Assembly: GCA_903874895.1 (NCBI GenBank)
Contig: CAIQUG010000169.1
Span: 1-48,731, forward strand
DNA length: 48,731 nt
Direction: 5' to 3'
Source of the DNA: an uncultured Caulobacterales bacterium
GTDB lineage: Bacteria; Pseudomonadota; Alphaproteobacteria; Caulobacterales; Caulobacteraceae
In this document: positions 39,948 through 48,731 of the stretch, piece after piece
Layout of the letters: each line of letters begins with the position of its first letter
Position numbering within the stretch: the first letter of the stretch is position 1
Program-made: the position numbers and the translations under genes
The notes under the pieces: model-generated
The model's database searches: none
What the model saw: the letters and a program-made list of their open reading frames with translations, nothing else
What the model was told of the DNA's origin: nothing

Positions 39948-40766
39948 ATGACAGTTCAGTCGGCGATCCGGATGATGGCCCTGATGGCGGCCGTGAGCAG
40001 CGTGCCGGGCCTCGCCGCCGCGTCCGGTGACGACGTTCCGCCGCCGATCTCCGTCCCCTATGAACGCCAGCGCTTCGCCGCCGAGCTTCCGGTGGACGGA
40101 CTGGTGCTGGATGTGGGCGTCGGCGCAGCAGCGCACCCCAAGCAGGTCGGTCTCAAGACCCTGGTGGTGGATCCCGTTCCGGTTCTCGAAGTCCAGTGGG
40201 GCACGGACTTTCACGCGAGCCTCGCGGACGGCGTGACCTTCACGCCGGTCTATTTCGGTCCCGTGGCCATCGGCGGCGTGGTCGAGCTGAAACAGACCTA
40301 CGCCAATGCCCGCCTCGCGCGGGGCCTGCGAAATGCCGACAATGCCGAAGCCGGTGGCCTGGTCCGCTATTTCTCCCCCATCGGTGATTTCGAGGCCCGC
40401 TACCGGGTGGGGCTCGACGGCGACACGACCCATTCCGCCGACTTTACCTACGACGTGGGTTTCACACCGACAAAGCGCCTGACGACCCTGTTCGAGCTTC
40501 GCGCCGGATGGTCCAATCAGGCCTTTGCCATTCCCCAGCGGCGAAGCCGTCTGAATCGCTACGGCCGTCCCCTGGAGACGGCGTCGGACTCCTATTCAGT
40601 CGGTGCCCAGGCGGTTCTGGACTACGAAATCAGCCGGAACTGGCGGCTGATCGCCATCGCGTCGAAGGACGAGATCGTCGATGCAGGAAAACAGGTCCTG
40701 AGTTTTCAGACCCGCAGCGTGCCGGTGTATTCCATCGTCCTGACCCGACGCATCCGCCTGTTCTAG
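39948..40766 (+). CDS. MipA/OmpV-like outer membrane protein
   Basis: This 272-residue protein has an N-terminal signal peptide (SAIRMMALMAAVSSVPGLAAAS) and a mature part of alternating hydrophobic residues typical of a small beta-barrel, with repeated aromatic-ended strands (FTPVYFGPVAIGGVVELKQTYANARLARGL, GGLVRYFSPIGDFEARYRVGLDG, FTYDVGFTPTKRLTTLFELRAGW) and a terminal Phe (RRIRLF), the usual outer-membrane insertion signal. The pattern fits the MipA/OmpV family, some members of which scaffold murein enzymes. The family call is moderate; outer-membrane location is more secure. Monocistronic. Confidence 0.75.
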   Translation: MTVQSAIRMMALMAAVSSVPGLAAASGDDVPPPISVPYERQRFAAELPVDGLVLDVGVGAAAHPKQVGLKTLVVDPVPVLEVQWGTDFHASLADGVTFTPVYFGPVAIGGVVELKQTYANARLARGLRNADNAEAGGLVRYFSPIGDFEARYRVGLDGDTTHSADFTYDVGFTPTKRLTTLFELRAGWSNQAFAIPQRRSRLNRYGRPLETASDSYSVGAQAVLDYEISRNWRLIAIASKDEIVDAGKQVLSFQTRSVPVYSIVLTRRIRLF

Positions 40767-41233
40767 GGCAGGGGCGCCTTGTCGGGTTCGACCCACCCGC
40801 GGCGGGCAGCCACGCTGAACAGGGTGTCCTGATGCCAGTGGCGCAGCAGCCACGCCTTGTCCGCATAGCCGGCGTCGAGCACGGCGTTGGCCAGCACGTG
40901 CTGCGGTGTCGTTCCCGGAAGGGTCGAGAGAACGCCGCGCACGGCCCGCAGCGAGGCCTGGGTGATGGTCTCGTGATACCCGCCGGTATCGCTGTTCTCG
41001 ACACCCGTCGCCCGATTGTAGGCGCGGATCAGATCGGGCATCTCCCGCTCGGGGGGGGCGACCGGATGGCGGCAGACGAGATAGACTGCGGCGGCGATGT
41101 GAGCCGCGTGGGTCCATTCCGGCTTCGGCAGGGTCCTGTTCACCAGGCCTTCGCCCAGTCTGATGATCTCCGCCTCGGTGTGGAAGCGCTGCGTCGTCAA
41201 GCGAGGAGCGACCGGGCCCGGTCCGCAAGACAC
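40763..41233 (-). CDS. Conserved-looking protein of unknown function downstream of purN
   Basis: This protein of up to 156 residues has a compact soluble sequence with invariant-looking segments PEWTHAAHIAAAVYLVC, LIRAYNRATGVENSDTGGYHETITQA and a C-terminal DTLFSVAARRGWVEPD; several His residues (WTHAAH, GYHET, HWHQD) could suggest a metal site, but this is speculation. Two starts are possible: GTG at 41233, overlapping purN by 37 bp, or TTG at 41200, overlapping the purN stop as TTGA; neither has a ribosome site. It is last in the purM-purN unit. It ends overlapping the convergent MipA-like gene by 4 bp. Confidence 0.75.
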   Translation of the reverse strand: MSCGPGPVAPRLTTQRFHTEAEIIRLGEGLVNRTLPKPEWTHAAHIAAAVYLVCRHPVAPPEREMPDLIRAYNRATGVENSDTGGYHETITQASLRAVRGVLSTLPGTTPQHVLANAVLDAGYADKAWLLRHWHQDTLFSVAARRGWVEPDKAPLP

Positions 41234-42887: not shown

Positions 42888-44039
42888 ATGACGCCCATAA
42901 TCGCCAATGCAGAGCTTCAATCCTTCTGCGACCGCCTCCGGACCGCACCGTTCATCACGGTGGATACCGAGTTCATGCGCGAGACGACCTACTGGCCCAA
43001 GCTGTGCCTGATCCAGGTCGCCACGGAGACGGATGCCGCCGTGATCGATCCGCTCGCGGACGGGCTGGATCTGGCCCCGTTGCTCAGCCTGCTGGCCGAT
43101 CCCGCCATCACCAAGGTGTTCCATGCGGCCCGTCAGGATCTGGAAATCTTCCACAACCTGGGGGTCCGGACGACGCCGGTCTTCGACAGCCAGGTGGCCG
43201 CCATGGCCGCCGGCTTCGGGGAGCAGATCGCCTACGACGCCCTGGTACGCCAGATGCTGAAGATCGATGTGGACAAGTCCAGCCGCTTCACCGACTGGGC
43301 CCGCCGGCCCCTGTCCGAGGCGCAGATTGTCTATGCGGCGGGGGATGTGACCCATCTGGCCGCACTCTATCCCAAACTCCGGGCGCGTCTGGAGCGGGAC
43401 GGCCGACTGGGCTGGGTCGCCGAGGAGATGGCCCAACTGGCCGATCCCGCCCTCTATGACACCGATCCGGAAAAGGCCTGGCGGCGGCTGAAGCCCCGCC
43501 GCTTCACCGCCAAGTATCTTGCCGTATTCAAGGCCGTGGCCGCCTGGCGCGAACGGACCGCCCAGACCCGTGACCAGCCTCGCGGCCGGATCCTGAAGGA
43601 CGAGGCCATAGACGAGATCGCCACTCAGCTGCCGACGGATGCCGATGGGCTGAACCGCCTGCGCTCGGTGCCCAAGGGATTTGCCACCTCGCGCTTTGGT
43701 CCGGACATGCTGGCCGCGATCCGGACGGCGCTCGAGGATCCGGAAGCCTACGCCCCGCAGATCGAGAAGCCTGCAGGCGGCGGCGCCCCGCCGCCGGGCG
43801 CGGTAGTGGAGCTCCTGAAGGTCCTGCTCAAGGCCCGGGCCGAGGACGCCGGCGTGGCGGCCAAGCTGATCGCCACGGTCCCGGACCTGGAAAAGATCGC
43901 CTCCAGCGACACCGCCCCGGTGGCGGCGTTGCAGGGCTGGCGTCGGGAGCTGTTCGGTGCGGACGCCCTGAAGCTCAAGCGGGGGGAACTGGCCCTGGTG
44001 CTGGACGGAGATCGCGTCCGGGTCGTTCCCGCCGCCTGA
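42888..44039 (+). CDS. rnd: Ribonuclease D
   Basis: RNase D is a 3'-5' exonuclease maturing tRNA and other stable RNA ends. The 383-residue protein has the DEDDy exonuclease motifs: Asp26 and Glu28 in VDTEFMRE, Asp84 in HAARQDLEIF, Tyr149 and Asp153 in YAAGDVTHL. The C-terminal half carries the HRDC domain (AWRERTAQTRDQPRGRILKDEAIDEIA) typical of bacterial Rnd. There is no ribosome site in front of the ATG. Convergent with the holin gene. Confidence 0.95.
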   Translation: MTPIIANAELQSFCDRLRTAPFITVDTEFMRETTYWPKLCLIQVATETDAAVIDPLADGLDLAPLLSLLADPAITKVFHAARQDLEIFHNLGVRTTPVFDSQVAAMAAGFGEQIAYDALVRQMLKIDVDKSSRFTDWARRPLSEAQIVYAAGDVTHLAALYPKLRARLERDGRLGWVAEEMAQLADPALYDTDPEKAWRRLKPRRFTAKYLAVFKAVAAWRERTAQTRDQPRGRILKDEAIDEIATQLPTDADGLNRLRSVPKGFATSRFGPDMLAAIRTALEDPEAYAPQIEKPAGGGAPPPGAVVELLKVLLKARAEDAGVAAKLIATVPDLEKIASSDTAPVAALQGWRRELFGADALKLKRGELALVLDGDRVRVVPAA

Positions 44040-44056
44040 TGCGCTGAACCGCGGCG

Positions 44057-44473
44057 TCAGGTCTGGATCTTCTCGTAGGTCCGCAGGGCCCCGAGACCCA
44101 GAAGTCCCAGCAGCAGCGGCATCAGGCTCTGGGCGTCCAGGGCTGGCCATCGGGCCGCATGTCCAGCGATACCCGCGAAAAAGACGGCCAGCGGTCGGAC
44201 GATGAAGTCGTTGGCCAGCGCCGCGCCGCAGACCCAGATGACGAAGGGTCGCCCCCCCGCCACGAACAGGCTGGATGACGTGGCCTCGGCCTTGTTCACC
44301 TCGATCTGGGCGCGGGCGAGATCGGTGTCGGCGGTCATGCGGGCCAGCTCTCCGGTCGCCTTCAGCTGCAGCAGTTGGGCCGCGGCCTGCGCCTTGGCTG
44401 CGGGGTCGGGGATCAGGCGGTCGACCAGCTTGGCACCCAGATCGAGGGCACCGGTCAAGGGATCGAAGGACAT
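44057..44473 (-). CDS. Three-TM holin of the gene-transfer-agent type (Holin_3TM)
   Basis: This 138-residue protein has an amphipathic N-terminal part (LGAKLVDRLIPDPAAKAQAAAQLLQLKATGELARM), then IEVNKAEATSSSLFVAGGRPFVIWVCGAALANDFIVRPL and the C-terminal LMPLLLGLLGLGALRTYEKIQ. The layout and the segments VAGxRPFxxWVCG and LLLGxLGLGxLRTYEK match the Holin_3TM family known from gene transfer agents and related prophages, where it lets lysin through the membrane. AGGAGA 7 bases upstream supports the ATG. It stands alone: no endolysin, capsid or integrase gene is adjacent, and neighbours are rnd and ppx. Family assignment is from memory. Confidence 0.85.
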   Translation of the reverse strand: MSFDPLTGALDLGAKLVDRLIPDPAAKAQAAAQLLQLKATGELARMTADTDLARAQIEVNKAEATSSSLFVAGGRPFVIWVCGAALANDFIVRPLAVFFAGIAGHAARWPALDAQSLMPLLLGLLGLGALRTYEKIQT

Positions 44474-44596
44474 GGGTACGGTCTCCTGTGTCGCCCGGCG
44501 GACGGCGTCTGCGGGAGACGACAGTGTGCCGTCATCCGGCGGGCCGGGGACAAGTTGCCAGCCGCCAGGACCGGACAGTGCCGGGGTCTGCCGTCG

Positions 44597-46102
44597 TCAG
44601 CGTACGTCGATCAGGGACGGCAGTTCCAGCACGTCGGCCAGGCCGGCGAGGCGCTTGCGCGTCTGTTCGCCGAGCACCATGTCCGCCCGTTCCCGCCGGA
44701 CGGTCAGTTCGATCCCTTGCCCGGTGAGGCGCAGGGTCGCCTGGTCGAGAAGCACCTCGCTTCGGCCGGACAGGTCGCAACCCAGGCGGAGCGCTGCCCC
44801 CAGCGCCCGGGCCCGGCGGAGGCGGTCCGGGGAGAGAAGGCGCGCGATCCCGCTTCCCTCCCGGGTCTGGTTCTGGGCCGTGTAGCGGGAGAAGACGGCG
44901 GCGGCGAGAAAGGCCCGTTCTGCATGGGACTGACCGGCAATCGGCGCGCGCAGCACCTGATCGAAGGCCAGATCTGCCCGATGATCCGGATGAAGCCTCG
45001 CCCCGAGGTCGCACAGGCGGCAGGCCGCAGCCAGCAGGATATTGTCCCGGCCTGCGGGGAACAGGGGCTCCAGCGAGCTCCAGAGGGGTTTCAGCCAGGC
45101 CTCCAGAGGCGGTCCCATGCGTTCTGAAATACCGTGCCGGGCCCCGAGCCAGTAGCAGCCCTCCACCAGCGGGTCGAGGGCGCGGTCCGCCGGTGCCATG
45201 GCCTCCAGCAACAGGCCTTCGCGCACGCCATAGGCTGATACGGACACGGTGCGTACGCCCAGGGTCTCGATCACCGATTCCAGAACGACGGCGGCATAGC
45301 CCATGGTCTCGACCCGCTTCTTCGAGACCCCCGGGATGCGTTCGAGGGACCCGCGGGACTGCCGGGCGACGAAGCGGGCCGTCTCCAGAGCCTCCCGCGC
45401 TGGCATCTCGAACTGATGCACGATCTGCAGGGGGTAGTCCGTCACCGCCATATGGACGAGGGCCAGATTCCGCCAGGCCCCGCCCACGGCATAGAAGGTC
45501 TCTGAATGAAACCGGTCACCCAGACGGGCAAAGGCGGCGGTGCAGGCCGCCCGGACACTGACCGGGTCGAGGGGGGCCGGGGCACCAAGGGAAAACGGAC
45601 CCAGTGCCATGGTCACGCCCGGGCCGGGCCGTCCATGGTCCAGGCGTGTGAGCTCGAGGCTGGAGCCGCCCAGATCCCCGACCACGCCATGGGCGTCCAC
45701 GGCCCCGGCGGCGACGCCAAGGGCGGCGAAGTGCGCCTCGTCCTCTCCGGACAGGACACGGATTTCCAGGCCGGTCTCCCGGAGCACCCGTTCGACGAAG
45801 GCCGGGCCGTCCACGGCCTCGCGCACGGCGGCCGTGGCGGCGGTGAAGACCTCGTCCGGTCGTGCGCCGTCGAGGACCGCCCGGAAGCGCTTCAGGGCGG
45901 CGATCGCCTGGGTCACGCCCTCCGGGGACAGGCGTCCGGTGCGCGCTGTGCCGCGTCCGAGGCCCGCCAGGACCTTTTCGTTGTAGGCCGTCCAGATCGC
46001 ACGCCCCTCGACCCGATAGAGGACCAGGCGCACCGAATTCGATCCAACGTCGATGACGGCAATGTCACGGGAACTCAGGTGACTACCTCCGCGGGCCGAC
46101 AT
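44597..46102 (-). CDS. ppx: Exopolyphosphatase / Ppx-GppA family phosphatase
   Basis: Ppx removes phosphates from polyphosphate ends; GppA forms hydrolyse pppGpp. The 501-residue protein has the actin-like ATPase phosphate loops [13 protein letters not shown] (about 16-28) and [10 protein letters not shown], the catalytic-glutamate region [12 protein letters not shown], and [11 protein letters not shown], followed by a C-terminal HD-like helical domain. Its start overlaps the end of ppk by 20 bp, so synthesis and breakdown of polyphosphate are coupled in one transcript. Confidence 0.93.
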
Positions 46103-48410
46103 GGTCGAAGGCCCGCGGGAGTTGCTTCACTCCACGGCCGCGACCGGACAGGCTTGGGTTGGTCATGAAATATTCGTGCGCCGAAAAGGACTTGCGGAGG
46201 TTGCGCGCATTGAAACGCTTGTAGGTCCCGTCGGGTTCCAGATACCAGCTCTGGGCCTCGTCATTCAGGTTCGCCACCATGATCTGGTTGAGGATCTGCT
46301 GGTGAACCGTCGGGTTTTCAATGGGAATCAGGCTTTCCACCCGGCGGTCGAGATTGCGCGGCATCCAGTCGGCGGAGGAGATGAACAGGCGTGCCCCGGG
46401 ATTGGGCAGGGCCTGTCCGTTGGCGAAGCAGACGATCCGGGAGTGCTCGAGGAAGCGGCCGACAATGCTCTTGACCCGGATATTTTCCGACAGGCCGATG
46501 ACGCCGGGCTTCAGGCAGCATATGCCGCGGACCACCAGTTCGATCTGCACGCCGGCCTGGCTGGCCTTGTAGAGCGCGTCGATGATCACCGGATCCACAA
46601 GGGCATTGAGCTTGGCCCAGATCCCGGCAGGGAGGCCCTTGCGCGCATTTGTGGCCTCCGCCTCGATCAGTTCAAGCAGCGTCGGCTTCAGCGTGACCGG
46701 CGAGAAGGCCAGCCGTTCCAGCCGATCCGGCACGGCATAGCCGGTGATGTAGTTGAAGATCTTCGCCACGTCCCGCCCATAGGCCGGGGCGCAGGTGAAC
46801 AGGGACAGGTCGGTGTAAACCCGGGCGGTGATCGGGTGGTAGTTGCCCGTCCCGAAGTGGCAGTAGGTCTTCAGCCCGTCACCTTCCCGCCGGACCACCA
46901 GGGAGAGCTTGGCGTGGGTCTTGTACTCCACGAAGCCGAAGACCACGTGAACGCCGGCCCGTTCCAGGTCCCGGGCCCATTTCAGGTTGGCCGCCTCGTC
47001 GAAGCGGGCCTTCAGCTCCACCAGGGCCGTGACGTTCTTGCCCCTGTCTGCGGCCTCGATCAGGGCCGCGACGATGGGGCTGTTCTCGCTGGTGCGGTAA
47101 AGGGTCTGCTTGATCGCCAGCACGTCCGGATCCGCCGCGGCCTGGCGCAGGAACTGCACCACCACGTCAAAGCTCTCGAACGGATGGTGGACCAGGATGT
47201 CCTTCTCCCGGATCGCAGCGAAGCAGTCGCCCCCGTGTTCGCGAATCCGCTCCGGATAGCGGGGTTCGAAGGGCTGGAACTTCAGGTCCGCCCGGTCCGG
47301 CGGGATGAGCTGCGACAGCTGAGCCATGCCCAGCATGCCATCCGTGCCCAGCACGACCACGTCATCGGCCTCGGCATGGAGGTTGCGGACGATGAAATCC
47401 CGCAGTTCGGTGCTCATGGAGCTGTCGAAGGTGACGTTGACCACCGAGCCCAGCCGACGCTGGCGGAGCAGGGCCTCGAATTCCCGCACCAGGTCCTCGG
47501 CCTCTTCCTCCATCTCCACGTCCGAATCCCGGAGCAGCCGGAAGACGCCCTGCGTCTCCACGTCGCAGCCGGGGAACAGGTGATCGATGAACATCACCAG
47601 CAGGCCTTCCAGCGTCAGGTAGCGACGCTCCACCTTGCCGCCGCGGGCCTTGCGGGGGGGCAGGCTCCAGAACCTGCGAACCTGCTGCGGCACGGGAACG
47701 AGGGCATAGAGGGTCCGGCCGTCCTGCCGCCGTCGCAGCTTCAGGGCGAGGCTGAAGGCGAGGTTCGGAATGAACGGGAAGGGGTGGGCCGGGTCGATGG
47801 CCATCGGCGTCAGGACCGGGAAGACCTGGGCGTTGAAGATCTCGCTCATGGCCGCCCGGTCGGTGGGGTCCACCTCGTCGGAGGCCAGCAGCTTGATGCC
47901 GGCCCCTTCCAGTTCCCGGCGAAGCTCCCGCCAGCGGTCCTGCTGGGCCTGCATCAGGGTGGCGGCCCCGGCGTTGATCCGCTCCAGCTGTTCGGTCGGG
48001 GTCAGGCCGTCCTGGCTCATGACCCGGACGCCCTCGCGCACCTGGCCCTTCAGCCCGGCGATGCGGACCATGTAGAATTCGTCGAGGTTGTTGGCCGAGA
48101 TGGAGATGTAACGCAGGCGTTCCAGCAGCGGATGCCGGGCATTCTGTGCTTCTTCCAGCACCCGTTGATTGAAGGCGAGCCAGGACATTTCCCGGTTGAA
48201 GAACCGGTCGGATGACCCGATCAGCGCCGGATCCAGCGGGTGTGCCAGGGGAGAATGTGAGGCCACATCCGCCGGCGGATCTGATCCTGCGTCTTCAGGG
48301 ACAGCGCCGACGGCCTCTTCCGCCGAAACGGGCGCGGGAAACGGTGCCGGCGTCGACGGGGCCGGAGTGGTCACGGGAATCGCTGGGGGAGGGATCGACG
48401 GGTCTTTCAT
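46083..48410 (-). CDS. ppk: Polyphosphate kinase 1
   Basis: PPK1 builds polyphosphate from ATP at the membrane-associated cytosolic face. The 775-residue protein has the N-domain start [21 protein letters not shown] (about 68-88), the helical H-domain, and the phospholipase-D-like catalytic half with the autophosphorylated His499 in [12 protein letters not shown] and [23 protein letters not shown]. It carries an unusual Pro/Ala-rich extension of roughly 65 residues before the conserved start. The ATG at 48410 is the first plausible start and GGGGTGAC lies 9 bases ahead. Between hdaA (upstream) and ppx (downstream), a known caulobacterial order. Confidence 0.95.
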
Positions 48411-48456
48411 CCGCCGTTTGTCACCCCGTGATGCGCTGCCTGCAAGCGCGCAGATG

Positions 48457-48731
48457 TCATAATTCGTCGAATAGATCGCCATCCACGGGTTCGATCTCGA
48501 GGATCTGGCGGGCAAGACTGCGGCTCACCGGCCGGCCCTGGTGATCGGCCGCATCATCGAGCCTCGCGACCATGCGCTGGGCCTCGGGGATCGACCGATC
48601 GATGCGGCGCACCAGATAGGCCAGCAGCTCGTCCGAAGCGCGGATGTTCCGGTCCCGGAACAGGTTTCGCAGGACCCCGGTCAGGACCACGTCGTCCGGC
48701 GCGGCCAGTTCGGCGACGGGCAGGGCGTTCA
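48457..48731 (-). CDS. hdaA: DnaA regulatory inactivator HdaA, C-terminal part (5' end outside window)
   Basis: The visible C-terminal 91 residues ([59 protein letters not shown]...[15 protein letters not shown]) match the lid domain of Hda/HdaA proteins, including the sensor-2 arginine helix [18 protein letters not shown]. HdaA promotes ATP hydrolysis by DnaA after replication starts. The N-terminal clamp-binding motif and Walker box would lie beyond the window. It precedes ppk by 46 bp on the same strand, so both may be read together. Confidence 0.88.

Follow-up and report, generated by a model that had tools for sequence, protein, structure and literature searches.

The window analysed here, a stretch of 48,731 nucleotides from the genome of a lake bacterium belonging to the uncultured Caulobacterales (G000), carries between the genes for ribonuclease D (rnd) and exopolyphosphatase (ppx) a reading frame with an ATG start which encodes a holin of the family associated with gene transfer agents (GTAs; Table 1). 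The holin gene and rnd converge with 17 bp between their stop codons, and ppx and the gene for polyphosphate kinase (ppk) are located upstream on the same strand as the holin. No endolysin adjoins the holin and no hydrolase is contained in the 17 bp before rnd. The original prediction had described the gene as solitary, without other phage or GTA genes around it, and this agrees with inspection of the ORF starts of the window by eye and with scans of 14 other window proteins against NCBIfam and/or Pfam profiles, in which no further phage genes were seen. Thirteen of these proteins belong to housekeeping families. The remaining one is the product of a 156-amino-acid ORF beside purN (40763-41233, minus strand) which has no Pfam or NCBIfam match and which, as judged by eye, is also found beside purN in two further loci (L024, L175). 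Scans of positions 43900-44800 for sigma-70 promoters and for terminators found none.

Table 1. Positions of the holin gene, its neighbours and upstream elements in the window, and of stand-alone lysis genes in other genera
Feature	Position	Strand	Basis or remark
rnd (ribonuclease D), convergent, 3' of holin	42888..44039	+	TIGR01388, E=2.2e-133
Holin gene, 138 aa, PF11351 GTA_holin_3TM / phrog_3427	44057..44473	-	profile matches
Gap between ppx stop and holin start, 123 bp, holin upstream region	44474..44596	-	coordinates
AGGAGA, predicted ribosome-binding site, 5' of holin	44482..44487	-	read from sequence
CACACT, second block, 19 nt after first, -10 position	44523..44528	-	sequence comparison
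CTTGTCC, first block of element common to the GTA-cluster promoter, -35 position	44548..44554	-	sequence comparison
ppx (exopolyphosphatase), upstream of holin	44597..46102	-	PF02541
ppk (polyphosphate kinase)	46083..48515	-	profile scans; start codon uncertain
GH108 + PF11351 holin, stand-alone beside recJ, G039 and G071	L034 9945-10832; L035 258-1127; L036 478-1344		
M15 peptidase + PF11351 holin	L037 10214-10624; L038 9816-10657		L037 holin frame not listed by ORF script

The predicted assignment to the GTA-type holins was confirmed by the PF11351 profile, from the name of which we presume that the holin of Rhodobacter capsulatus, rcc00556, is a member as well. The profile matched the window protein with 79.9 bits (E=3e-22), above its curated cut-off of 24.8, over profile positions 2-117 of 123, and phrog_3427 (lysis/holin) matched with E=1e-32; an NCBIfam scan gave no match. 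The assembly, 3.56 Mb in 266 contigs, contains exactly one PF11351 match, which is this gene. Hydropathy analysis yielded a long hydrophobic stretch from about residue 66 to 108 and another from about 109 to 133. An AlphaFold2 model with one helix (69-102) and two short ones (114-125, 128-137) had a mean pLDDT of 63.8 and was too uncertain for a fold search. Among PF11351 phage holins (phrog_3427), that of Pseudoalteromonas phage TW1, a full-length match to the family, has 42% identity to the window protein. On viral contigs the neighbours of these holins are often GH24, M15 or GH108 hydrolases (by eye, among 45 loci listed); such phage cassettes lie within phage genomes, whereas the window holin has no phage gene nearby. 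A 45% identical holin (L026 7923-8339) was encountered on a contig labelled Campylobacteraceae with phage-like genes around it as seen by eye, and this contig is probably viral or misbinned.

Five congeners (G001-G005) were available for comparison. The original prediction had proposed to look at synteny in related genomes, and the order ppk-ppx-holin-rnd-purM was indeed found in the window as well as in three of them, i.e. at locus L022 of G001, L023 of G003 and L024 of G004, with holins 91%, 93% and 74% identical to that of the window, respectively. Pairwise dN/dS ratios across the six pairs of the four copies ranged from 0.04 to 0.18, and the gene is thus maintained by purifying selection. 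In G004 a GH25 lysozyme ORF (L024 8125-8754; PF01183, E=1e-36) overlaps the stop of the holin by 4 nt and fills the space up to rnd, which makes this a phage-type holin-endolysin pair and a full lysis cassette. Neither an endolysin ORF nor room for one exists between holin and rnd in the window, in L022 or in L023. A tree of 27 holins joined the copies of the window, L022 and L023 to one clade (support 100/99) and did not settle whether the L024 copy goes with this clade or with the prophage copy of G005 (L025). The latter, 70% identical to the window holin, is the sole PF11351 copy of that genome. It is located in a prophage tail region (L025 106-8435) with a Baseplate_J gene, and a GH24 lysozyme overlaps it.

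A GTA encoded elsewhere in the same genome had been postulated, and this guess proved right, as an RcGTA-type cluster is found on contig C209, the holin being on contig C169. The cluster contains matches to GTA_TIM (E=2e-132), Phage_capsid (E=6e-75) and Terminase_6N/6C, with more GTA-like ORFs between these markers as seen by eye. A structural cluster in the own genome, apart from the holin, is what is expected for a lysis gene of a Rhodobacter-type GTA. Neither of the two findings which had been named as refuting the prediction was made, namely lack of a Holin_3TM profile match, or a genome without GTA or prophage structural genes in which the protein is nevertheless conserved and constitutively produced. 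GTA_TIM and terminase occur in all four genomes with the holin at ppx/rnd. The one well-assembled genome of the genus in which profile searches found neither GTA_TIM nor a GTA terminase, G005 (99% complete), also lacks a holin at this site; since its rnd is not followed by ppx and the site is rearranged, this is weak evidence. G002 has GTA genes and no PF11351 match. The search for rnd recovered nothing but a distant paralogue in its assembly, from which the locus is thus missing, and the genome is uninformative.

Across 148 genomes of the order the holin family does not track the presence of a GTA. PF11351 was matched in 10 of these relatives and GTA_TIM in 81, most GTA-positive relatives thus being without PF11351, and of the 10 genomes with the holin family three have no GTA marker and seven do, G071 through its terminase and the other six through GTA_TIM. 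As PF11351 also occurs in prophages (G005; in G022 a GH24 and holin pair is present), co-occurrence at the level of the order is uninformative and was dropped as evidence.

A murein hydrolase gene, which according to the original prediction should be sought in the genome, did not turn up. GH25 occurs in 18 of the 148 genomes, within the genus only in G004, and genome-wide profile searches gave no match in G000, G001 and G003. GH108 occurs in 21 of the 148 and in none of G000-G005. GH24 is present in all six genomes of the genus with seven matches in total. Each of the genomes contributes one long protein which has a proline-rich middle stretch and a hydrophobic C-terminus and which adjoins lipB wherever the contig extends that far (e.g. 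L195 368-1669 and its orthologues). This protein resembles SpmX, which we presume it to be, and was for this reason regarded as a conserved housekeeping-like protein and not counted as an endolysin. No endolysin partner was hence found for G000, G001 and G003 among the GH25, GH108 and GH24 families; a possible partner would be a hydrolase of a family beyond these three, or there may be none.

The 123-bp gap upstream of the holin had been proposed as a regulatory region of its own. It contains a promoter-like element of two blocks resembling the promoter of the GTA cluster in the same genome; the likeness fails in two of the four genomes with the locus. The first block reads CTTGTCC in G000, G001 and G003 and CTTATCC in G004, and the second, 19 nt further on, CACACT, CACAAT, CACACT and CATAGT in the same order of genomes. 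The GTA-cluster promoters have CTTGTCC-N20-CATAGT in G000, CTTGTCC-N19-CATAGT in G001, and CTTGTCC-N20-CATGAT in G003. In the whole of G000 the pattern CTTRTCC-N19/20-CANANT occurs at three sites, the holin promoter, the GTA-cluster promoter and one site inside dnaK, and it recovered the GTA promoter of G001 which had been left out of pattern building. As this pattern was picked after inspection of the sequences and its reversed control yielded five sites in G000, the number of sites alone proves little. A looser pattern, CTTGTCC-N18-21-CANNNT, gave 32 rows corresponding to 31 distinct sites in G000, against 47 rows for its reversed control. Of 20 sites examined, only those of the holin and the GTA are intergenic, the others lying inside frames as judged by script or by eye.

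Two further comparisons were made. With a profile built from the GTA promoters of four genomes only, the holin site came first in the 48.7-kb window (12.3 bits, the next site having 11.1); in the other stretches of G000 that were scanned, two sites outrank it (14.8 and 14.1). In the G001 sequence scanned, the holin site with 22.2 bits directly followed the GTA promoter, the next non-GTA site having 10.1, and in G003 and G004 it was not among the best 14 listed. In an untuned local alignment of each genome's own GTA promoter with tiles of 130 nt the holin upstream region ranked 2nd of 1946 in G000 and 8th of 654 in G001, where it became first of 654 with the GTA promoter of G000 or G003 as query; there was no likeness in G003 (rank 244 of 654) or G004 (336 of 642). 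By these comparisons the resemblance looks real in two species, G000 and G001, and is absent in G003 and G004. CTTRTCC was also considered as a general element of GTA promoters and rejected, as it is found upstream of only 4 of 18 GTA terminases (G000, G001, G003 and G071). It is not found upstream of the terminases of G002, which has the variant CTGTCC, G004, G091 and G099, nor in any of 10 further family members with a terminase found (12 loci fetched). The background rate is 11 of 239 ORFs with CTTRTCC within 120 nt upstream.

Stand-alone lysis genes were also found in other genera. In G039 and G071, both of the genus g2, a GH108 lysozyme and a PF11351 holin are located together among housekeeping genes with recJ on one side, G071 having two copies of the pair on different contigs. 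The promoter of this pair and that of the GTA cluster in G071 share ACTTATCCG-CCC..CC.GATC..GCGCCTAA.CTT, and with the GTA promoter as query the two copies ranked first among 132 and 210 tiles, a closer likeness of lysis and GTA promoters than in the genus of the window. The cassette of G039 likewise ranked first of 506 against the GTA promoter of G071; neither GTA_TIM nor terminase was found in G039 despite its stand-alone cassette, and a GTA-like promoter in such a genome would fit a recent loss of the GTA or an assembly gap.

A GH108 lysozyme standing alone, close to an alpha/beta-hydrolase-like gene, occurs in five further g2 genomes (L176-L180), each time with CTTATCC upstream. These show no wider likeness to the GTA promoter of G071 (G006 rank 102 of 530, G027 158 of 306, G058 181 of 356, G050 153 of 336, G065 27 of 172), and the GTA promoters of G006 and G027 themselves are without CTTRTCC. 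G091 and G099, which belong to another family, have GTA genes and stand-alone pairs of an M15 peptidase and a PF11351 holin; here, too, the G071 promoter gave no signal (G099 60 of 796, G091 191 of 796). Taken by type of lysis gene, CTTRTCC is found upstream of all eight g2 GH108 loci and of one of two M15 and holin loci, and upstream of none of 17 GH25 loci. Outside g2 it precedes none of the six GH108 loci that the script could judge, L155 not being among these.

Two systems of GTA release lend themselves to comparison. In R. capsulatus the endolysin rcc00555 and the holin rcc00556 are located away from the structural genes of the GTA according to passages of PMC8601537 and PMC3423380, the latter also stating, with reference to Hynes 2012, that disruption of rcc00555 leads to less gene transfer and trapped particles. 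The holin of the window is likewise apart from the structural cluster; unlike the R. capsulatus genes it is solitary and placed at ppx/rnd in a member of the Caulobacterales, and the partner seen in its sister G004 is a GH25 lysozyme. For Caulobacter crescentus, passages of PMC13236601 and PMC9632790 describe LypABC, a CARD-NLR-like system, as needed for GTA-mediated lysis and report that homologues of holin and endolysin were not found. This species is of the same order as the window genome and has a related GTA cluster, the GTA_TIM control being positive in Caulobacter vibrioides, with lysis genes off the cluster; unlike the window genome, C. vibrioides gave no PF11351 match in the control. 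Among the open-access titles and abstracts listed, a weak basis, none dealt with a holin serving a GTA in the Caulobacterales.

An operon for a trypsin and ATPase protein, an NLR-like protein, and a trypsin and endonuclease protein is present in G076 (L181 566-7433). It was taken as LypABC from its layout rather than from a sequence comparison with C. crescentus, and its LypB served as search query. With at most five candidates per genome scored, LypB was detected in 3 of the 148 relatives (E<=1e-10), all of the genus g22, and was not found in G000-G005. PF01223, which we read as the family of the LypC endonuclease, is absent from G000-G005.

Taken together, the gene is probably a phage-type holin which the host has retained for the exit of particles of the RcGTA-type GTA encoded elsewhere in its genome. 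The family, the fixed place of a gene under purifying selection in the genus, the GTA cluster of the own genome and the full cassette at the same place in G004 point to this role, and a functional GTA-linked holin, as a variant of the Rhodobacter arrangement, would on our analysis be the most economical account and is our best reading. The promoter likeness in G000 and G001 and for the pair of G071, the purely prophage-borne copy in G005 and the lack of LypB matches in the genus also count in its favour. Of the role as exit gene as originally predicted, the profile match, the GTA, the synteny and a promoter-like element in the 123-bp gap similar to that of the GTA cluster held; a hydrolase partner of the GH25, GH108 or GH24 families and a tracking of holin and GTA across the 148 genomes did not emerge. 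The main gap is the endolysin, not found among these three families in G000, G001 and G003, and the failing promoter likeness in two congeners also stands against this role.

Another use by the host of a domesticated phage holin, independent of the GTA, for example in programmed lysis releasing extracellular DNA or enzymes, is unlikely in our judgement. The housekeeping-site cassette of G039, with no GTA_TIM or terminase found, would agree with such a use, as would the many GTA-positive relatives without PF11351 and an element which accompanies the GTA promoter in some genomes only. However, a GTA is present in every one of the four genomes with the holin at ppx/rnd, a GTA-like promoter precedes the holin in G000 and G001 and another cassette in G071, and the very cassette of G039 matches the GTA promoter of G071 best of all tiles.

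More doubtful still is the view that the protein no longer acts as a holin and has become a small membrane protein belonging to the ppk-ppx operon, with a part in polyphosphate metabolism or phosphate stress. The endolysin overlapping the holin in G004, the 70% identity kept to the holin of a prophage lysis cassette and the promoter-like element in the gap argue against it, although the gene does lie downstream of ppk-ppx in the same orientation, the terminator scan was negative for the region between them, and GH25, GH108 and GH24 searches offered no endolysin in G000. That the gene is a functionless remnant of a decaying prophage, for which the prophage relative in G005 and the lack of any phage gene around the holin could be adduced, is very improbable in view of the selection test and of the open frames which four genomes have at this site.

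For the holin as exit gene of the GTA the following course may be envisaged. Whatever activates the GTA programme would also act on the predicted promoter in the 123-bp gap, so that holin and GTA would be co-regulated. In the small fraction of cells that produce GTAs, the holin would then build up in the inner membrane and open lesions at a set time. The particles would be freed thereafter by a murein hydrolase from another locus, in G004 by the GH25 lysozyme whose gene follows that of the holin, or by a collapse of the envelope. GTA lysis without an endolysin is conceivable, as lysis in C. crescentus proceeds without a known endolysin according to passages of PMC13236601 and PMC9632790. The position of the gene permits a further speculation. 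Work by Westbye from 2013 is said to have found RcGTA release responsive to phosphate, and a holin downstream of ppk-ppx might connect with a response of this kind.

In a wider sense, and tentatively, release of GTAs in the Caulobacteraceae could be a swappable module. Different lineages would have placed a PF11351 holin, accompanied by a GH25 or GH108 endolysin or by none, separately among housekeeping genes at differing sites, with a promoter that is a copy of the GTA-cluster promoter or has come to resemble it by convergence, and LypABC of Caulobacter would be one lineage-specific replacement. The solitary holin in the genus of the window might work by itself or together with a hydrolase from another locus. 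C. crescentus, which uses the immune-like LypABC according to passages of PMC13236601, is the model species of the order and has been reported without holin-endolysin lysis, with which the arrangement in the window contrasts. As LypB was detected in 3 of the 148 relatives only although 81 carry GTA_TIM, LypABC would not explain the exit route in most GTA-positive relatives. If the holin, conserved and standing alone behind a promoter like that of the GTA, and the full cassette of a sister genome do have the role suggested here, classical phage lysis would serve GTAs in the Caulobacterales, too.
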